From the NCBI RefSeq assembly GCF_037044555.1, contig NZ_CP146275.1, positions 1,716,501 to 1,780,500 of the forward strand: DNA of 64,000 bases, in the 5' to 3' direction. Made by a program: the position numbers and the translations under genes. The notes beneath the pieces were generated by a model. It had not been told where the DNA came from and ran no database searches. It saw only the letters and a list, made by a program, of their open reading frames with translations. The stretch's first letter is position 1. Each line of letters begins with the position of its first letter. This document shows positions 11 to 29,643 of the stretch, one piece after another. This DNA comes from Pelagibacterium nitratireducens (GTDB taxonomy: Bacteria > Pseudomonadota > Alphaproteobacteria > Rhizobiales > Devosiaceae).

Positions 11-97
11 GCGGTCGTGGCGGAATTGGTAGACGCGCAGCGTTGAGGTCGCTGTGGGGTAACTCCCGTGGAAGTTCGAGTCTTCTCGACCGCACCA
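11..97 (+). tRNA. tRNA-Leu (anticodon GAG)
   Basis: Complete cloverleaf. The 7-bp acceptor stem GCGGTCG pairs with CGACCGC, and the 3' CCA is encoded. The anticodon arm CAGCG-TTGAGGT-CGCTG places GAG at 45-47. A long variable arm, as expected for leucine tRNA, follows. It reads CUC/CUU codons. Its last 17 bases serve as the left attachment core of the adjacent integrated element, so the gene remains intact after integration while its original downstream sequence now lies beyond 8247. Confidence 0.97.
81..97. repeat. attL core, 17 bp
   Basis: TCTTCTCGACCGCACCA, covering the 3' half of the T arm, the acceptor strand and CCA of tRNA-Leu. It is identical to 8231-8247; identity stops at base 80 (g versus t) and after base 97. 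This is the expected crossover region of a tyrosine integrase that uses the tRNA 3' end. Confidence 0.93.
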
Positions 98-161
98 AGT
101 CTGTGGATTTCTGTTGAAATCCCAAAGACATGAGTGATTTCAGAGAGTTGTAGACGCCCGT

Positions 162-183
162 CCGCTACAAAGGGCGCTACAAA
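162..183 (+). promoter_or_regulatory. Putative integrase arm-binding repeats (left)
   Basis: Two direct copies of CGCTACAAA at 163-171 and 175-183 (12-bp pitch). The second copy ends on the A of the integrase start codon. The same nonamer occurs twice at the other end of the element (8147-8155 and 8160-8168). Distance to the att core is 65 bp here and 62 bp there. Paired direct repeats at similar distances inside both cores fit arm-type sites of a tyrosine integrase, and their position over the start codon suggests that the integrase may repress its own gene. The function is inferred. Confidence 0.6.
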
Positions 184-1826
184 TGATTATTCCGATGACC
201 AGCCTTACACGAGCGAAAAACGGCGATTGGTTTGCCCGCAAAGGTATCCCCGCTGACATTCGCGATGCCTACCAGCGTGCCTATGGTGTCCGCCAGGAAG
301 AACGTTTTCGACGTCCCGCAGCTACACCCGCAGGTGAGGCGAAGATGGCCTTCGCGGATTGGGTCGCGGAATTGGAGGGCAGAATTGCTGCGTTACGGGC
401 CTCTGATTCGGGAGATGCGCCAGCCCTGCCGCTACGCCAGCTGCGTGCCATTCTGGGCGAATGGTACGATTGGTTTATCAATCAGCAAGAAGAGCGCGAG
501 CTATCGATGGAGGCTGTCGATAGCCTTTTTGCGCCAATAGCGGCCATTCATGAGCAGTTTGTGGTCAACTCGGAATCGGTAGATGGCGATTTTGAGCTGG
601 CAAAAGGACCGCGCTATAAGGCGCTTCTGCACGCTCGATTGGCACAAGCCTCAGGCATTGAAATTTTCCTAGCTGAGGCAGGGAGAGCGTTGCGGGATGA
701 GGACCGCCACCGCTTGCTCGAACTGCTTGAAGATGAATTTATCGCAGCATTGCAGGTGTTAAGAAGGCGGGCAGAGGGTGACTATGGGCGAGATACCCAT
801 AGGTTGAGGTTTCCTGCGTCCGGCGCTCAGCCGGTTGATGGACGGAAACACTGCGGCTGGAACGCGTGGGAAGCATTTGAAGCATGGGTGAAAGAACGAA
901 ACCCACAAGCCTCGACCATCAACCGCTGGCGTGGCGTCTTCGAGCATTTAAATACATTCACTGACGGCAAGGACCTGACCCTCATCACCGACGATGATGC
1001 GGTTGCTTGGAAAGACAAGCTTATGGGCGGCAACGCCAGCGGTCGAACTGTCAATGAAGTTTGGCTTACTGCCGCCCGGCGGGTTTTCAATTGGGTGAAG
1101 GACCAGAAGAAGATTGGCAGCAACCCCTTCGATGGGGTGAAGGTGGCGGTGGGTCGTACCTCTGGCACCAAGGGTGAGTTTAGCGAAGAAGATGTAGAGG
1201 CTATTCTTAAGGCTACGCTTATATCGCGTTCCTCCCGCACATCCCCCTATTTACGGGCCGCAATTAGGTGGGTGCCATGGTTGTGCGCATACACGGGCTC
1301 ACGTCCCGGGGAAATGACTCAACTCCGCAAAGAGGACATCGAAAAGCATCGGGACGGCTTCTGGATGCTGCATATTCGTCCAGAGGCGGGCACGGTTAAG
1401 GGATCAGTTTCCCGCACTGTCGTGCTGCACGACCATCTGGTCGAGCAGGGCTTCATTGGCTTCGTCCAAGAGGCAAGGGGCGGGCCGCTGTTTTATGATC
1501 CAAAGGCCAGCGGAAGTCAAAAAAGGGCCGTAGACCCGCTCAATCCAGTGCGCCCGATGTACGTGCAGGTGCGACAAAAGCTGGCCGACTGGGTGCGCAA
1601 ACTCGGTGTTACCGACCAAGGCGTAAGCCCCAACCATGGCTGGCGACATACCTTCAAACGCCGCGCCGCCCGAGCAAAGATCGAGCAGCGTCTGCGAGAT
1701 GCGTTCTGTGGTCATAGTTCCGGAAATGTTGGTTCCATCTACGAACGCCCCAGTGTCGAGGACTTGGCCGAAGCCATCAAGGATTTCCCGCGTTATCCAG
1801 TCGACACTTCCAAGATCGCGCTCTGA
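183..1826 (+). CDS. Site-specific tyrosine recombinase (phage-type integrase)
   Basis: 547 residues. It cuts and rejoins DNA at the tRNA-Leu attachment site to insert or excise the island. The N-terminal half (about 1-240) is a long, mostly helical arm/core-binding region. A SAM-like core-binding domain lies near residues 225-320, followed by the catalytic domain. Catalytic signatures are visible: Arg in GSRPGEMTQL, the His-x-x-Arg pair in HGWRHTF, the Gly-His of CGHSSGNVGSIY and its terminal Tyr nucleophile. It is longer than the usual 380-450 residues because of the N-terminal extension. ATG 183 is the first start after the arm repeats; ATG 195 is an alternative. Its adjacency to attL identifies it as the island's own integrase. 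Confidence 0.93.
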   Translation: MIIPMTSLTRAKNGDWFARKGIPADIRDAYQRAYGVRQEERFRRPAATPAGEAKMAFADWVAELEGRIAALRASDSGDAPALPLRQLRAILGEWYDWFINQQEERELSMEAVDSLFAPIAAIHEQFVVNSESVDGDFELAKGPRYKALLHARLAQASGIEIFLAEAGRALRDEDRHRLLELLEDEFIAALQVLRRRAEGDYGRDTHRLRFPASGAQPVDGRKHCGWNAWEAFEAWVKERNPQASTINRWRGVFEHLNTFTDGKDLTLITDDDAVAWKDKLMGGNASGRTVNEVWLTAARRVFNWVKDQKKIGSNPFDGVKVAVGRTSGTKGEFSEEDVEAILKATLISRSSRTSPYLRAAIRWVPWLCAYTGSRPGEMTQLRKEDIEKHRDGFWMLHIRPEAGTVKGSVSRTVVLHDHLVEQGFIGFVQEARGGPLFYDPKASGSQKRAVDPLNPVRPMYVQVRQKLADWVRKLGVTDQGVSPNHGWRHTFKRRAARAKIEQRLRDAFCGHSSGNVGSIYERPSVEDLAEAIKDFPRYPVDTSKIAL

Positions 1827-1971
1827 GCCCTTTAGTAGGCACACAGGGCGGCTTTGGCGGTGGCTGGCGGATCATCCCAGCCACAGCCATTCTCGACTCT
1901 GTACGTCGCCCTGAGGCCTTCCCCATGATGTCCGAGAACGGTCGACACGGCCGCGAAACACGAGAACGCTC

Positions 1972-2112
1972 ATGCGGGGCTTTTTCACTTCCATCAAAGA
2001 CATTGTCAGCAACCTTCGTGCGGACCTTCGGGAGATGATCCACCGCCACTTCGCCAATCACATCGGGGGTCGTCCTCCGGTCTTTACGTTCGTGTGCCGT
2101 TTCCCCGCCTGA
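1972..2112 (+). CDS. Possible 46-aa protein of unknown function
   Basis: A short open frame from ATG 1972 to TGA 2110-2112, starting MRGFFTSIKDIVSN and continuing with an amphipathic, Arg-rich stretch (LRADLREMIHRHF). No good Shine-Dalgarno sequence precedes it. The 299-bp interval between the integrase and the antirepressor remnant holds nothing else that I recognise, apart from a CCCTTTAGTAGG motif at 1828-1839 directly after the integrase stop. It may be a gene fragment or chance; I do not assign a function. Confidence 0.25.
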   Translation: MRGFFTSIKDIVSNLRADLREMIHRHFANHIGGRPPVFTFVCRFPA

Positions 2113-2125
2113 GCGCATGGGTTGA

Positions 2126-2926
2126 GTGGAGGGGGCTAAGGGTAGGGGAACAGAGCCGGCATCCATGTGTGACCGGCAACTGTTCGCCGGTCGGCTGGCG
2201 GACGTGGGCCAGCGTCGAAAACCGGTAGCGGCAGCGGTAGGGAGTAGGCCGACCATTCCCCGCCTGGCCCCTGCCGAACTAAAAACACTCTCCTTCTCCG
2301 GCCTTGAGCTGCGTGTCCTGACCATCTCGGACGAGCCGTGGTTCGTGGCAGCAGATGTCATCAAAGCAATCTACGGCCCGACCAACAGCAATTCGATGCC
2401 GTACAACATCCTCTCGCCGGATGAGCGAAGCTACACCAATCGGATTGATGTTGGTCTGGCACCCGGTCGCAAGATGGTCAGCATCTCCAAAAGCGGCCTC
2501 TACAAGCTCATTGCGCGGTCGGATAAACCCGAGGCCCGCAAGTTTCAGGATTGGGTGACCCGGGACGTTTTCCCTCTACCACCCTCAAGGACGGACAGGC
2601 CTTCACCAATAGCCGGGACGTGGCTGCCTTCTTCGGCAAGGAACATCGCAACGTTCTCCAATCCATCGACCGATTGGAATGTAGTGCAGGTTTCACTGCG
2701 CTGAATTTTCAGCTCAGCTCCTACAAGGACGCCTCGGGCCGGTCACTCCGCGCGGTCGACATGACCAAGGATGGCTTCTCGTTCCTCGTCATGGGCTTCA
2801 CCGGTAAGGAGGCAGCCCGGCTTCAAGGAGCTCTACACCGCCGCGTTCAACGAGCTGGAAGCTAATGCAAACGCTGCCGTCATGTCGCTCCCCGACTTCA
2901 CCAATCCGGCGGCTGCCGCTCGGGCC
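2126..2926 (+). pseudogene. Frameshifted BRO-N / Rha-type phage antirepressor remnant
   Basis: Three consecutive frames read as one protein. Frame 2 (from about 2270) gives a BRO-N domain (SGLELRVLTISDEPWF, AADVIKAIYG, SKSGLYKLIARSDKPEA, FQDWVTRDVFP). After about 2575 the sense continues in frame 1 as a pRha domain (TNSRDVAAFFGKEHRNVLQ, DMTKDGFSFLVMGFTG). After about 2820 it continues in frame 2 (FKELYTAAFNELEANAN, LPDFTNPAAAARA) before decaying. One base missing in the T4C3 run at 2568-2575 and one extra C near 2820-2821 would explain both shifts. Such fusions act as prophage antirepressors or late regulators. As read, the gene is broken; two sequencing errors are the alternative. Confidence 0.8.
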
Positions 2927-3092
2927 ACGCTGAGGACGATTACCCCCATCATAAGCAATCGCGCACCGATCGGCGCACGGTCCAACCTACGCACCCCCGA
3001 CACGATCAATGCTGGTTCCATCCCTCCCTCTAGCCGACACGTGTTGAACCCAATGCGGGTAGGGGCGTCCCGACATTTCAGAAAGCACACCA

Positions 3093-3935
3093 ATGAGAAT
3101 GGAAGTCATCAAGCGAAAACTCGACAAAGAGGCCCCAGGAAAAGTCCTGGGACCATTTGATGTTGACCTTCTTGCGATCCGCGTCGACCCGACCATGCAG
3201 GTCCGCAATCGCCTCGACGAGGGCAACAAGCAACGGCTACGGGCAGCCTATAGGGCTGGTGCCGACGTGCCCCCCTTGCTCATCGCTTTCATAGAAGGGG
3301 AGCAAGGGTACCCGGTTGTGGTCGACGGACACCACCGCCTCACCGTACTGGAGACGATGCAGGCGGAGGCCAAGCTCAGAGGAGGGCAGCCGGTTAAATC
3401 TGTGCGAGCCAAAGTCGTAAAGCTATCGCGACTCGAAGCACAATATCAGGCAGCGATGGCCAACGGTACGCACGGCCTCCAGCTTACCCCAAAGGAAACC
3501 CGCCGGGTGTTCGCGACCTACATCCGCGCAGGGCATCACATGAACGCTGACGGCACATTTAAGTCCTATCGCGAAATGGGGCGCGATCTTTCGCGCGAGC
3601 ACAAAACCATCATCACATGGATGCGCAAGGACTTCCCTGCGGAATACAAAAAGATGGAGCAGCCCGAGAAGGCAACCATGGGCAGTGATGGACCACCACC
3701 AAAACCGCCCATACTGGTCAAGCACATTATCAACGCCCGCCTCCTCGAAATGCGCTCCCTGTTTCACGACTCGCTTAGCGCGGACCGGCACACGCTCGTT
3801 GATGGCATGTCTAGCCTCCTGTCAGAGTTCCGCAACGCGTTGGAACAGGTCAGCGGCTGGCAGATCGATGAGGAGGTAAGGACATCGCGGATGCATAAGG
3901 CCGGAAACAGACCATCTTCTCACCTGCCCTTCTGA
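3093..3935 (+). CDS. ParB/sulfiredoxin-fold nuclease-like or DNA-binding protein
   Basis: 280 residues. The N-terminal domain (about 15-110) is a ParB/Srx fold: an LLAIRVDPTMQVR strand, then VPPLLIAF and the signature VVVDGHHRLTVLE. Family members bind DNA or nucleotides; some are CTP-dependent clamps, others phage or plasmid regulators. Residues about 130-185 (LTPKETRRVFATYIRAG, YREMGRDLSREHKTI) look like a helix-turn-helix, as found after the ParB domain in small phage/plasmid homologues. No ParA partner lies in the element, so segregation is doubtful; regulation of element genes is as likely. It lies directly upstream of a 461-bp gap containing a palindromic site (4096-4112). ATG 3099 is an alternative start. 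Confidence 0.72.
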   Translation: MRMEVIKRKLDKEAPGKVLGPFDVDLLAIRVDPTMQVRNRLDEGNKQRLRAAYRAGADVPPLLIAFIEGEQGYPVVVDGHHRLTVLETMQAEAKLRGGQPVKSVRAKVVKLSRLEAQYQAAMANGTHGLQLTPKETRRVFATYIRAGHHMNADGTFKSYREMGRDLSREHKTIITWMRKDFPAEYKKMEQPEKATMGSDGPPPKPPILVKHIINARLLEMRSLFHDSLSADRHTLVDGMSSLLSEFRNALEQVSGWQIDEEVRTSRMHKAGNRPSSHLPF

Positions 3936-4396
3936 GTGGGGAATTTCCCCATTGCAGTGCCCAGATGGAGGGGGAGCCTCGCGCCCCCCTTGATTGCCCC
4001 CACTATTAGGAAGAAGTGCCTCCGCGCTCGGGCAAGCTAGCCGCGACCGCGCTGTCTTCTCATCCCCGGATACTTCGGAGAAAAAATCTGAGACGTCCCC
4101 TATAATAGTGGAATGGCGCGCCTCCCCCCTCGCCCCTTCATTCGATGGCCTTCCCACCGGACTGATTGACTTCCCGCCACAATACCACGCCAAAGGTATG
4201 CCCGATCTCCGGGAAGGCGCTGGCATTGAGCAAGCCCAGCTCAACTAGCTGAGCGTGGTCAAGATGGTCCCACCCTGTTGATCAAGGCGTTCCCCGTAGC
4301 AGGGCCGTCTACACCGTGGACCAAATTTTACATCCACAACGATCGTTGACATTAGATAATTGCGGAATATGGTGGTTCCCAGAGTAGGGGATCACC
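3936..4396. other. Long intergenic region with operator-like palindromes
   Basis: 461 bp between the ParB-fold gene and the serine recombinase. No convincing ORF with a ribosome-binding site is seen. It holds a 9-bp inverted pair CCACTATTA (4000-4008) / TAATAGTGG (4103-4111), the near-palindrome at 4096-4112, and the half-site next to the recombinase start at 4383-4392. It is more A/T-rich near 4310-4380, where a promoter for the recombinase would be expected. Confidence 0.5.
4096..4112. promoter_or_regulatory. Operator-like palindrome TCCCCTA-N3-TAGTGGA
   Basis: TCCCCTATAATAGTGGA: the arms are reverse complements at 6 of 7 positions around a 3-bp spacer. The TAGGGGA half-site recurs at 4385-4391 and 5087-5093, each a few bases before a start codon. 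A weaker related sequence (CCCTTTAGTAGG) occurs at 1828-1839 and again within the 5077-5094 site. This distribution suggests a family of binding sites for an element-encoded regulator; the ParB-fold protein just upstream is a candidate. Inference only. Confidence 0.4.
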
Positions 4397-5059
4397 ATGA
4401 AGCAATACGTCATCTACACCCGCGTCAGCACCCAGGAACAGGGCCGGAGTGGTCACGGTCTGGAGGCGCAGGAGAGGGACATTGATCTGTTCCTCACCAA
4501 TTTCTCTGATGTGCCCTACGAGGTAATCGGCCGGTTTCAAGACGTTTTGTCGGGCAGCTCGGATGATCGCCCGGAACTCGCGCAGGCCCTAAAGCTCGCT
4601 CGTTCAACAGGAGCCGAACTGCTGGTCTCCAAGCTGGACCGCCTCAGCCGCAAGGTGTCCTTCATTGCTGCGCTCATGGACGACAAGGCTCTGAAATTGC
4701 GAGTGGCCTCAATGCCGTTCGCGGACAAGTTCCAGCTCCATATTTACGCGGCTCTTGCTGAGCAGGAGCGGGCATTTATCAGTGAACGCACCAAGGCCGC
4801 GCTCAAGTCGGCCAAAGCCAACGGCAAGAAGCTGGGCGGCCTTCGGGACAAGACCATGAAGCGGAATGAGGCTATACAGGCCAAAGCGAAGGCCGAGGCC
4901 GAAAAGGTGATGAAGGTGATAGGGCCTTTGCGCCGGTCAGGGGCCACGCTGGCGGCAATAGCGGCCACGCTAAACGACACTGGCATCGCAACCTCAAGAG
5001 GCGGCGCATGGACGCCTACGCAGGTTTCTCGCGTACTTGCGCGGGTCGAGTCTCCTTAA
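4397..5059 (+). CDS. Serine recombinase (resolvase/invertase family)
   Basis: 220 residues. It catalyses DNA strand exchange through a serine-phosphate intermediate. The resolvase N-domain starts at once: YVIYTRVSTQEQ, with Arg9 and nucleophile Ser11. The family motif then appears as LLVSKLDRLSRK, with the long E helix and LAEQERAFISERTKAAL following. The C-terminal 60 residues (KVIGPLRRSGATLAAIAATLNDTGIATSRGG, then WTPTQVSRVLARV) are a helix-turn-helix of Hin type. Its length fits small resolvases rather than large phage serine integrases. It may resolve dimers or invert a segment; I see no obvious res site beyond the palindromes around it. Start ATG 4397 follows AGTAGGGGATCACC. Confidence 0.9.
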   Translation: MKQYVIYTRVSTQEQGRSGHGLEAQERDIDLFLTNFSDVPYEVIGRFQDVLSGSSDDRPELAQALKLARSTGAELLVSKLDRLSRKVSFIAALMDDKALKLRVASMPFADKFQLHIYAALAEQERAFISERTKAALKSAKANGKKLGGLRDKTMKRNEAIQAKAKAEAEKVMKVIGPLRRSGATLAAIAATLNDTGIATSRGGAWTPTQVSRVLARVESP

Positions 5060-5076
5060 CAAGCTGCCATCGGCGT

Positions 5077-5094
5077 TTCCCTTTAGTAGGGGAT
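5077..5094 (+). promoter_or_regulatory. Repeated leader motif TTCCC-N3-AGTAGGGGAT
   Basis: The 10-mer AGTAGGGGAT occurs at 4383-4392 and 5085-5094, four and three bases before the ATGs at 4397 and 5098. Both copies are preceded by TTCCC. It could be a shared ribosome-binding site (AGGGG), an operator (TTCCCTT-tag-TAGGGGA is a near palindrome), or both. Its 12-base core CCCTTTAGTAGG (5079-5090) is identical to 1828-1839 behind the integrase. Confidence 0.45.
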
Positions 5095-5097
5095 ATT

Positions 5098-5241
5098 ATG
5101 TGTTTTAGAGATTGCGAAACAAGTCCGCCTATTCTCCCTCGGGGTGCCACGATAGCCATTGTCGTTGGCGGGCTTTCGACGGGGCACCCATATGTTTTGT
5201 TCTCTTGGATGATGCCCGAAGATGTTGCTTGGCCGCCTTAA
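5098..5241 (+). CDS. Possible 47-aa protein of unknown function
   Basis: ATG 5098 to TAA 5239-5241, just after the serine recombinase. The predicted peptide has a hydrophobic middle (ATIAIVVGGLSTGHPYVLF) that could span a membrane once, and two N-terminal cysteines. The start is preceded by TAGGGGATATT, the same leader as the recombinase gene, which is the main reason to list it. It ends 39 bp before the Shedu start. No family recognised. Confidence 0.35.
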   Translation: MCFRDCETSPPILPRGATIAIVVGGLSTGHPYVLFSWMMPEDVAWPP

Positions 5242-5280
5242 GGCACATAGTCTCATCATAGTACACGTGGGGGAAATGCT

Positions 5281-6432
5281 TTGGAGGGCTGGGATGAAGA
5301 GTTGGCGTTTTGGAGAAAGCGGCCTTGGAAGACTTACGTGAGCCCCCGGTTGAGCAAGTTCTCCGAGCGGCCATTGCGCATCGCTAGAAAAGTCGTAGAC
5401 GGGGGTGGGGGTCTCGAGTTTGCCAAGGAAAAGGGTGAGGTGGTCCTCCAGGAGAAACCTCCGGCACGGTTTGAACTGGTCGCCAAGTTTCTTGAGGATG
5501 ACCGAGGCATTACCAACTTAGTCATTCAGAAATTCACTAAGGCTGGACCGAGAGAAGCGTTCACGCTCTATCCCGAGCAAATCACTGCCCTCCTGCAATT
5601 CGTGGCAAACATCCGCCGCGTCAAATTTCCCGACAGTAAGGGCCTCAATATCAGCGATGGCGAGCTTGAGGAGATGCTCCTGTCTCCAGAGCAGACCCGG
5701 AGAATGATGGCTGCGAATGCTCCGTTGCTGGCTGCTCTAGCGCGGACTGAAATCACAACAGAGGACGTGGTTGCTCTCGGCTATCGAAAGGCGCAGCTCC
5801 AGCGCTTCGATGGCCTGCTCAACGATGAAGCCGCATTCGCGACCGAGTTGGCCGAATGTGCCGGAAAACCAGAGGCTGTATGGCAGAGGTTTTTCGAGCA
5901 GAACCAATGGGTTTTCGGTTATGGCCTTTCGTACGTGTTTATGACTGGCTTGGAAGACCGCAAGCTGGAGCAGGTAGTGAAGGGCTTTGACGTTTCCGGT
6001 CGTGGAAAGCGGGTGGACAGCCTTTTGAAGACTAGAGCCGAAGTCAGCTCGCTTTGCTTTGTCGAGATCAAGCGTCACGATACCGCGCTGCTAGCCACCG
6101 GTGCTTACCGGCCTGATGTGTGGCAACCTTCCAAGGAACTCACGGGCGCCGTTGCCCAGGTTCAGGCTGCACTTCATGCCGCGTTGGCTGTGATAGGCGA
6201 TGAGCTGCGGCCAGAACTAGACGATGGGAGCCCCTCGGGGGAGCTTTTGCAAGCGATACAGCCCCGGTCCTTCGTGATCGCCGGGAGACTTTCGGAGCTT
6301 ATGACGGATAGTGGGTTGCACCGGCCCAAGTTCCGGGCCTTCGAGCTTTACCGGAGAAACCTCTTGCAACCCGACGTTCTCACTTTCGATGAGCTGTTTC
6401 ATCGAGCTAAGTACATAGTGGAAAGCGCATGA
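5281..6432 (+). CDS. sduA: Shedu (SduA, DUF4263) anti-phage nuclease
   Basis: 383 residues. Shedu proteins are PD-(D/E)xK nucleases that protect bacteria against phages. The C-terminal nuclease domain (about 195-370) is clear: EAVWQRFFEQNQWVFGYGLS, then RGKRVDSLLK with Asp246 and CFVEIKRHDTALL with Glu262 and Lys264 of the catalytic triad, then YRPDVWQPSKELTGAVAQVQ. The N-terminal 190 residues (PWKTYVSPRLSK, ERPLRIARKVVDG) form the variable sensing/regulatory region of the family. The start is TTG 5281 behind GGGGGAAATGCT; no in-frame ATG fits. Its stop overlaps the next start (ATGA). Location inside a tRNA island supports horizontal acquisition and a defence role. Confidence 0.9.
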   Translation: MEGWDEELAFWRKRPWKTYVSPRLSKFSERPLRIARKVVDGGGGLEFAKEKGEVVLQEKPPARFELVAKFLEDDRGITNLVIQKFTKAGPREAFTLYPEQITALLQFVANIRRVKFPDSKGLNISDGELEEMLLSPEQTRRMMAANAPLLAALARTEITTEDVVALGYRKAQLQRFDGLLNDEAAFATELAECAGKPEAVWQRFFEQNQWVFGYGLSYVFMTGLEDRKLEQVVKGFDVSGRGKRVDSLLKTRAEVSSLCFVEIKRHDTALLATGAYRPDVWQPSKELTGAVAQVQAALHAALAVIGDELRPELDDGSPSGELLQAIQPRSFVIAGRLSELMTDSGLHRPKFRAFELYRRNLLQPDVLTFDELFHRAKYIVESA

Positions 6433-7370
6433 CGCAGGTAAACGCCTCCGACCCTAAGTTGTCCAGGTCGCGAGATGACTTTTCTTCGTCCACCGTGAGG
6501 GCACTTTTGATGAGGGTGGCGGGAGCTTGTTCACGCCCGGAATGCAGGCGCATGACGCTTGTCCCTAATCCCGACTATCCAAGCGTCTTTTCAGTCACAG
6601 GTCGAGCTGCCCACATAACAGCGGCGTCCCCGAATGGACCGAGGTATGACGAGACGCTAACAGCCGTCCAGCGCAGGGGCGCTGACAATGGAATATGGCT
6701 TTGCGCGGACTGTGCCGACTTGATCGACAAGCGAGGCGGAGAGGGATTTGACGTTGAGCTGTTGAGGAGTTGGAAGGCCAGGGCGGAGCAAGAGGTTTCC
6801 GACGCTGCTTTGCTGGGCTCGTTTGCGCAGCGACCAGTATGGCTCGATAAGCTCTCCACGCCACATTATGTCAATCTACCGAGGGTGCTCCACTTCTCCA
6901 AGGATACCCTCTCGCCAGCAGCGGCGAAAATACTAAGAAACGGCTTTCCAGAAACTGGCTACATCGCGCCAGAACTATACGAGGCAAAGCTCATCCTAAG
7001 GCGTCTCTCCATCAAGGCAATCGATGTCGAGCAGCTTATGAAGCCCAAGGAGCAGGTTAGGGAGGGACTGACAATTTCCTTCTATCGATCTTGTAGGACG
7101 TTAAACGGCGCTAACTCTGATTCAGCGGACGTGGAGACTTATTCCTATGACCGCTCGCCCTTAGTCTACTGCAAGGCTCATGGTTTCAAGTATGTTATGC
7201 CCTACGACCCGATTTGGGTGACTTCAAATACGGCAGTGGCCACAATGCGTAGCGGCAACACTAAATTGGCAGGCATAGCCGTGGTGAAGAAGGTGGATGT
7301 AGAAGGAAATTTAGCAGTTTGCACACCGCTGACCTTCGGCTTGCCCGATTTGTTGGGTCTGTTCGGGTAG
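6429..7370 (+). CDS. HNH-type zinc-binding protein coupled to Shedu
   Basis: 313 residues, start overlapping the Shedu stop by 4 bp, so translation is probably coupled. Residues about 17-125 match an HNH/zinc module seen in defence loci: Cys34-x4-Cys39, GRAAHITAASPNGPRYD with His62, NGIWLCADCADLID with Cys92-x2-Cys95, and RSWKARAEQEV. Two Cys pairs would hold zinc around a beta-beta-alpha fold. The third catalytic His of classical HNH (usually CHxxID) is replaced (CADLID), so nuclease activity is uncertain. The remaining 190 residues match nothing I recognise. A partner nuclease or DNA-sensing subunit of the Shedu locus is the working idea. Confidence 0.72.
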   Translation: MTQVNASDPKLSRSRDDFSSSTVRALLMRVAGACSRPECRRMTLVPNPDYPSVFSVTGRAAHITAASPNGPRYDETLTAVQRRGADNGIWLCADCADLIDKRGGEGFDVELLRSWKARAEQEVSDAALLGSFAQRPVWLDKLSTPHYVNLPRVLHFSKDTLSPAAAKILRNGFPETGYIAPELYEAKLILRRLSIKAIDVEQLMKPKEQVREGLTISFYRSCRTLNGANSDSADVETYSYDRSPLVYCKAHGFKYVMPYDPIWVTSNTAVATMRSGNTKLAGIAVVKKVDVEGNLAVCTPLTFGLPDLLGLFG

Positions 7371-7418
7371 CAGGAATGTCCCTGCTTAGCTTAACAGTGT
7401 CGCAACCGAGGTGAACGC

Positions 7419-8123
7419 ATGACGGCTGCCGCAACCCCAGGCGCTAGCCTTGCGAAGACGGTATCAGCAGGTGTGGGTACGAATGCATCCGACAGACTGA
7501 CTGCTGTTGCGCGGGCACTTTCTGGTGCAGTTCCAGGCGCGGGCTCTGTGCTTGCCGAGGTGATCTCAACCGCAATACCAAACCAACGTTTGGACCGCGT
7601 ATCCGACTTCCTAGTACTCTTGGCCGGCGAAGTGGACCGGCTCTCCGCTGCGGAGAAGCTGCTGCAACCTTCGAACATGCCCTTAGTCGAGGAGGGCATC
7701 GCCCAAGCCGCTAGAGCCTTTACGCAAGCGCGCCGCATATACTTGGCAAGGTGCGTCGCGCATGGGGTTGACGCTGATGAAGTGGACAAGCTCAACGAGT
7801 TGAAAATCCTCCGACTGCTCGATGAGGTTGGTGACGATGACTTACTGCTCTTGGACGCTGTGAGTGACCCACAAGCATCTGAAAAGTTGGAGGCCCTGAA
7901 ACCACCCCAACTCCCTGCAAACGCGCCTGACGAGGACCGTGCCAAAGGTGAGCTCCACCATGCCTCCTTCCGCAAACTGATTGCCATAGGCTTCCTTAGC
8001 TCTGCTCCGTACGCAGATGAGCCGCGGAGAAGGAGACCCAGCAAATATGGGACGCTGGAGGATGGTCCCTACATCAGCGCACTAGGCAGAATGGTTTTGG
8101 CGCGCGTTGGGCTGCGTCAATGA
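7419..8123 (+). CDS. Unknown 234-aa protein, third cargo gene
   Basis: Not recognised. The N-terminal third contains PGAGSVLAEVISTAIPNQRLDRVSDFLVLL, resembling a hydrophobic-helix plus IPNQRxDRxxxFL motif that I associate with uncharacterised proteins near defence genes. The middle is helical (EEGIAQAARAFTQARRIYLA). The C-terminal 60 residues (SFRKLIAIGFLSS, then SKYGTLEDGPYISALGRMVL) resemble a winged-helix-like end. It has its own ribosome-binding site (CCGAGGTGAACGC before ATG), lies 48 bp after the HNH gene on the same strand, and ends 23 bp before the right-hand arm repeats, so it belongs to the island. Confidence 0.65.
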   Translation: MTAAATPGASLAKTVSAGVGTNASDRLTAVARALSGAVPGAGSVLAEVISTAIPNQRLDRVSDFLVLLAGEVDRLSAAEKLLQPSNMPLVEEGIAQAARAFTQARRIYLARCVAHGVDADEVDKLNELKILRLLDEVGDDDLLLLDAVSDPQASEKLEALKPPQLPANAPDEDRAKGELHHASFRKLIAIGFLSSAPYADEPRRRRPSKYGTLEDGPYISALGRMVLARVGLRQ

Positions 8124-8145
8124 TCACGTTTGAGACGGTTGACAG

Positions 8146-8168
8146 CCGCTACAAAACCCCGCTACAAA
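8146..8168 (+). promoter_or_regulatory. Putative integrase arm-binding repeats (right)
   Basis: Two direct copies of CCGCTACAAA at 8146-8155 and 8159-8168 (13-bp pitch), 62 bp before the attR core, in the same orientation as the pair at 162-183. Together with the left pair they give four nonamer copies placed only at the ends of the element, as expected for integrase arm sites. Confidence 0.6.
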
Positions 8169-8230
8169 CGCCTTCATCGACGGGCGAAAAAGCTCAATGA
8201 AATCAACGGTCGGTCGGCAAAATCGCCGTT

Positions 8231-8247
8231 TCTTCTCGACCGCACCA
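8231..8247. repeat. attR core, 17 bp
   Basis: Exact second copy of the tRNA-Leu 3' end (TCTTCTCGACCGCACCA). The sequence to its right is the chromosomal flank that would have followed the tRNA before insertion. Confidence 0.93.
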
Positions 8248-8251
8248 TCTC

Positions 8252-29366: not shown

Positions 29367-29643
29367 TCCTGGGCGGCCGGTAAGGTTAACACTTCATTAT
29401 TAATGGTGAAGCCGGGGCCGGACGACCCCGGAATGCTTGGCGTTCGGGTCGGCTGGGAGTAGGTTGCAGGCACTGAGAAGGACGCGCTTGCGCGATCCGG
29501 TTCAGTACAAACCCCTACGGTTCTCAGGTCCGCCGCAACTCCTGATCCGTAGGGCGGCTGGCCCGGTATCGGACAAGAGTGGCCTCTTCGACAAACCGGA
29601 CCGGGTCAGCCAACCCCGCCTCGCTCAGGATTTTCTGGTGCAA
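29367..29643. other. Intergenic region after pleD
   Basis: No ORF with a convincing start. It contains a CCGGGG/CCCCGG hairpin at 29412-29431, without a T-run, near the pleD end and the larger hairpin at 29513-29554. The remainder shows nothing I can name. Confidence 0.5.
29513..29554. ncRNA. Extended hairpin, possible small RNA
   Basis: CCCTACGG (29513-29520) pairs with CCGTAGGG (29547-29554); inside, TCAGG pairs with CCTGA around a 12-base loop, with a small bulge between the two stems. It is not followed by a T-run, so it is not a simple terminator. It lies between pleD and the rpmG terminator. A structured RNA or a remnant palindromic repeat are both possible. Confidence 0.3.

Follow-up and report, generated by a model that had tools for sequence, protein, structure and literature searches.

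Shedu, a single-gene nuclease system, is here followed by two co-oriented genes in a stretch of 64,000 nucleotides from Pelagibacterium nitratireducens (the window, Table 1). A sequence-only reading of the window had proposed a multi-gene Shedu variant, and the locus thus raises the question of whether the three genes form one system or are separate genes carried by the same element.

A tRNA-Leu island with three cargo genes

The genes are part of an 8.15 kb element inserted at a tRNA-Leu gene (bases 98–8247). G419, a genome of the same species, has the tRNA joined directly to what is found here from position 8231 on (772 bp at 96.6%), and bases 98–8247 therefore represent an inserted element with an empty counterpart site. 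The congener G008 is also without the island, with an alignment past 8231 of 25 bp only. Reading away from the tRNA, the island encodes an integrase, BRO-N and pRha regulators, the 280-aa protein, a serine recombinase and finally the cargo. The three cargo genes have a GC content of 54–58% compared with 60.7% in the window after position 8250. The 17 bp att repeats and the empty site bear out the earlier placement of the three genes at the cargo end of a tRNA island.

The overlap that had been reported between the Shedu stop and the start of the second gene is present as an ATGA, the HNH313 start codon (6429–6431) lying on the Shedu stop TGA (6430–6432), and the third gene does begin 48 bp past the HNH313 stop, with a purine-rich GAGGTGA ahead of its start. 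The three genes are probably one transcription unit. With the ATGA coupling the genes would be expressed jointly from the island, but such coupling does not in itself create a complex. The locus thus represents a small defence island of recent insertion; two defence-type genes about which little is known are probably expressed there along with a familiar nuclease.

Table 1. Features of the island and its integration site (positions in the window)
Feature	Position	Strand	Evidence
tRNA-Leu (gag), integration target	11..97	+	ARAGORN and Rfam
attL, 17-bp repeat, tRNA 3′ end	81..97	+	Exact repeat with 8231..8247; empty site in G419
Tyrosine integrase, 547 aa	183..1826	+	Pfam Phage_integrase, E 3.9e-7
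BRO N-terminal domain protein, phage/element regulator type	2126..2704	+	Pfam Bro-N, E 3.9e-18
pRha-type phage regulator, overlaps BRO-N frame	2551..2865	+	Pfam Phage_pRha, E 3.7e-22
280-aa island protein, no significant family; ParB-like by eye only	3093..3935	+	ORF list, Pfam
Serine recombinase (resolvase)	4397..5059	+	Pfam Resolvase, E 2.6e-26
Shedu nuclease SduA, 383 aa, TTG start	5281..6432	+	Pfam, PADLOC, alignment
HNH313, Cap5-type HNH/zinc protein, 313 aa, ATGA overlap with Shedu	6429..7370	+	ORF list, PADLOC, relatives, structure rows
HNH/zinc domain of HNH313, residues 15–125, Ala96 for third His	6471..6803	+	PADLOC, alignment, structure rows
C-terminal OB-like domain of HNH313, residues 193–309, weak structural assignment	7005..7355	+	
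234-aa helical protein, putative remote Abi-alpha (PF14337) relative, C-terminal part winged-helix-like (weak)	7419..8123	+	Relatives, profile comparison, model
attR, 17-bp repeat, island end	8231..8247	+	Exact repeat with 81..97; empty site in G419

The Shedu protein

The Shedu protein matches Pfam SduA_C (DUF4263, PF14082) with an E value of 7.5e-28 (98 bits against a cut-off of 27) and the PADLOC SduA model PDLC00394 with an E value of 1.8e-140 across residues 6–382. Residues D246, E262 and K264, which we take to be the catalytic PD-(D/E)xK residues of the family, do not vary in any of the 30 aligned sequences, and a PDB sequence search recovered, for the nuclease part only, distant relatives among Shedu proteins of solved structure (8ti8, E 9.4e-12; 8ps4). 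The protein is like known Shedu in its whole-length match, in these invariant residues and in being the product of one gene that includes an N-terminal region, whereas the two co-oriented genes that follow set the locus apart. As judged from its family, it is predicted to be a complete single-gene DNA-end nuclease system.

Published accounts of Shedu (PMC12904381, PMC12137116, PMC12839542) portray a nuclease to which various regulatory or sensory domains are joined at the N-terminus, with DNA-end binding for the Escherichia coli protein. Such diversity, together with the ATGA coupling, would suit a true multi-gene Shedu variant in which the HNH/OB protein is a split-off sensor counterpart that delivers or licenses DNA ends, and the third protein a back-up abortive effector. 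However, because its own N-terminal region is complete, the Shedu protein in the window does not look like one whose sensor domain has moved into the next gene, and with the neighbourhoods described below such a variant seems unlikely.

HNH313, a Cap5-type HNH protein without the third histidine

The zinc module noted earlier in HNH313 (C34-x4-C39, H62, N87, C92-x2-C95) is present, and varies little or not at all across 30 aligned sequences. The loss of the third, metal-ligand histidine also holds: the position is Ala96, with alanine in 31 of the 31 close relatives having that column and A, S or G in 87 of 88 broader relatives. H62 and N87 are kept, although the full H-N-H pattern with a third histidine is not found in HNH313. 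With a single exception among 119 relatives, the third histidine position is taken by A, G or S, which makes cleavage by this protein doubtful.

In PADLOC the HNH domain comes closest to PDC-M68A (E 3.7e-24), a candidate defence protein to which the likeness is confined to residues 17–126. The domain is of the Cap5 type, a defence-effector type, and matches SAVED-effector models. Cap5 is an HNH-SAVED CBASS effector, whose HNH domain is described in PMC8568899. Although the N-terminal HNH domain of HNH313 is of this type, its C-terminal half has no SAVED match: PADLOC SAVED_HNH matches end by residue 125, and residues 193–309 are weakly assigned as OB-like in the structural rows of one Foldseek list. 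Further differences from Cap5 are the alanine at the third histidine position and the lack of a nucleotidyltransferase among the nine proteins scanned with Pfam between 183 and 10463.

The same HNH module is found alongside other domains, namely the NACHT-associated NCAB2 as well as AAA_31 and AAA_21. Here is an HNH-derived domain that has lost its metal-binding histidine in a whole branch, yet is attached to NACHT-associated and AAA proteins, and whether it is a nuclease or a DNA sensor is therefore a clear and testable question. Proteins of ~1500 aa with an N-terminal NGIWLC-type HNH domain are encoded at L110, L067, L019, L020, L022 and L023 with A or G for the third histidine; the two scanned (L110 and L067) end in an NCAB2 domain.

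The 234-aa protein

There is no match of the 234-aa protein to Pfam or PADLOC at E values up to 1, and to this extent it has no recognised family, as first stated; its distant relatives do reach one, however, with P0140 and P0148 both bearing the Pfam label Abi_alpha. P0148 scores 26.4 bits against the Abi_alpha model, below the cut-off of 29. Profile–profile comparison of the 234-aa family with Abi-alpha gave 91.6% (E 8e-7) over residues 94–234, from an alignment of five members only, compared with 0.2% (E 0.38) for the unrelated control A1. (Among the sequences handled, P0002 and P0177 come from the window itself, and A5 does not include P0115.) Although the protein itself falls short of the Pfam model, and its N-terminal part is unaligned, these comparisons point to a remote, effector-like relative of Abi-alpha (PF14337), which fits the earlier suggestion that it could be an effector. 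According to PMC6356687, Abi-alpha is an abortive infection protein that Enterococcus faecalis carries on a prophage.

Neighbourhoods of the relatives

We asked whether the three genes recur together at 160 loci, 62 of which have a Shedu match at the HMM threshold. Six of these are from the window's own genome, and the other 56 reduce to 40 distinct ORFs, which occupy 38 places; at two of these Shedu is in two frames. One place was found through its HNH gene (L153) and three through an SduA model (L116, L127 and L130); L075, L085 and L086, with Shedu matches below threshold, are outside the 38, as are the own-genome loci. Between 65 bp and some 6 kb of downstream flank was read at these places. 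The 234-aa family is at none of the 38 places, and a Cap5-type HNH gene is at one, in Phaeobacter inhibens (L093), 143 bp downstream of Shedu and with a match to the HNH part only (28.7 bits).

Outside the own genome there are 62 HNH-positive loci (56 distinct ORFs), with Shedu in the flank read at L093 only. The 234-aa family is at five such loci, which correspond to three distinct viral places (L041, L042, and L043 and L044 with the same ORF) and one plasmid (L115), none with Shedu in the flanks read. The sole near-full-length HNH313 relative with a readable context, 64% identical and in Martelella radicis, is without Shedu, and no HNH313 relative with such a context adjoins one. Homologues of the two downstream proteins lying mostly away from Shedu had been named beforehand as the outcome that would speak against a multi-gene variant; this is what we find in the readable contexts, which are what the counts cover, most relatives, and most of the metagenomic ones, being on contigs without one. 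At the M. radicis locus (L018:6155–7906) the HNH313 relative has a TTG start and is beside a divergent 221-aa gene that has no Pfam or PADLOC match; the flanking genes are housekeeping-like by eye.

We also looked for contigs of equal size among 31 close HNH relatives (with contigs of at least 5 kb for 10 of the 31), 55 relatives of the 234-aa protein and the best 120 of 584 Shedu relatives. None are shared by the HNH and 234-aa sets (31 versus 55), and the HNH set has one size in common with the best 120 Shedu relatives, 1518 bp, which is too short for both genes. One sign of linkage remains: in Mesorhizobium sp. KR2-14 a Shedu homologue (89% identity) and a 234-aa homologue (73%) are on contigs of equal size, 954,617 bp, and among the 120 matches listed there is no HNH313 relative on a contig of that size. 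This hints at a two-gene unit of Shedu and the Abi-alpha-like protein, between which HNH313 was inserted later. However, the 234-aa relatives described above are without Shedu in the flanks read and the contigs of the other close Shedu relatives (12,130, 20,706 and 2,869,586 bp) equal none of the 55 in size, and we regard such a unit as quite unlikely. The KR2-14 Shedu record (P0182) is only 306 aa with first residues that do not match, which may reflect damage to the gene or an error in its annotation.

HNH-like genes behind other Shedu genes

Nineteen Shedu loci of full-length type, the window included, were surveyed downstream using our own cut-off (a score of at least 280 and at least 500 bp of downstream sequence, with L045, L074 and lower scorers left out). 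An HNH-like gene is close behind Shedu at three of the 19, again counting the window, a rate that may be above chance; defence genes cluster anyway.

In Phaeobacter (L093) the HNH gene overlaps the next gene by 4 bp. Together with its plasmid relatives this locus (L093:4787–6114) represents a conserved module of a Cap5-type HNH protein with an intact third histidine and a 212-aa protein, known in Phaeobacter, Polymorphobacter, Ensifer and Rhizobium, and followed in the last two by a small annotated nucleotidyltransferase gene. Wherever the second gene occurs in the plasmid records (eight, one of them from Phaeobacter), the HNH gene is there too. In the three others opened, from Polymorphobacter, Rhizobium and Ensifer, there is no Shedu annotated within 4 kb of the module and no Shedu profile match, and the Phaeobacter Shedu gene thus precedes an independent module.

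In G106 (L061:5989–8042) Shedu is followed by a 291-aa HNH-like zinc protein with a mechanically assigned GTG start and a 4 bp overlap, and without BLASTP similarity to HNH313. A 43% identical relative in Agrobacterium (L153), weakly like PtuB of Septu (E 1.4e-4), is also behind Shedu, with a DUF5677 gene between, while five other plasmid relatives that were opened (one of seven records was not) have no Shedu. The Agrobacterium run, on a plasmid of A. tumefaciens Q15/94 (L153:1778–5992), is composed of Shedu, DUF5677, HNH/PtuB-like and HEPN_Swt1/PDC-M34B-like genes with ends that overlap or nearly touch, and is a candidate for another multi-gene Shedu neighbourhood. At L098 (4987–5988) a 333-aa protein with very weak AbiJ_NTD3 and Mrr_cat matches is encoded 3 bp behind Shedu.

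In PADLOC, model PDLC00406 seems to combine a Shedu nuclease with an N-terminus that is HNH-like, and its halves match the two adjacent genes in the window. Like the HNH-like genes in G106 and Phaeobacter, this favours a multi-gene variant; however, no single protein spans both halves among the matches listed from 150 genomes, the HNH genes near other Shedu genes belong to different families, and Shedu is missing from most of the plasmid relatives that were opened. An HNH partner gene of Shedu is not reported in the titles and abstract openings of the literature matches listed. Three families of HNH genes have members behind Shedu, but all three have members elsewhere without Shedu as well, which suggests that the tight coupling can be incidental.

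A model for the island

We consider it likely that the island carries three separately acting defence genes as cargo, in a probable single transcription unit. This is favoured because the island has att repeats and an empty site, Shedu is full length with an intact D/ExK site, and the HNH and 234-aa families rarely or never accompany Shedu (one and none of the 38 places), with M. radicis and the 234-aa relatives both lacking it; there is also no real contig sharing for the 31 HNH relatives, the HNH module is found in defence-type proteins, and the profiles link the third protein to Abi-alpha. Against it are the equal-sized KR2-14 contigs, the HNH-like genes behind Shedu at L061 and L153, and the PDLC00406 halves. 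In this separate-genes model Shedu would act alone as a DNA-end nuclease, and HNH313 would be a two-domain protein of its own, with an HNH/zinc module of the kind that serves as the effector end of Cap5 and an OB-like part that probably senses or binds nucleic acid or nucleotide. Because the metal-ligand histidine is lost throughout its branch, HNH313 probably binds, or cuts via an altered site, and the 234-aa protein probably aborts infection on its own.

A layered three-gene Shedu, in which the usual fused sensor is a separate subunit, with HNH313 a catalytically dead adaptor that passes phage DNA ends or modified DNA to Shedu and the Abi-alpha-like protein killing the cell if Shedu fails, is in our judgement distinctly improbable. 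A role of HNH313 or the 234-aa protein in the upkeep of the island, in maintenance or excision control, instead of in defence is highly improbable: the island has its own regulators and recombinases and the model of the 234-aa protein has a weakly winged-helix-like C-terminus, but both genes are at the far cargo end, their relatives are in other elements and a chromosome (L018, L041–L044), and the HNH module recurs in defence-type proteins. Elsewhere in the window there is an EcpR1-type small RNA (Rfam Atu_C6) at 29510–29616.
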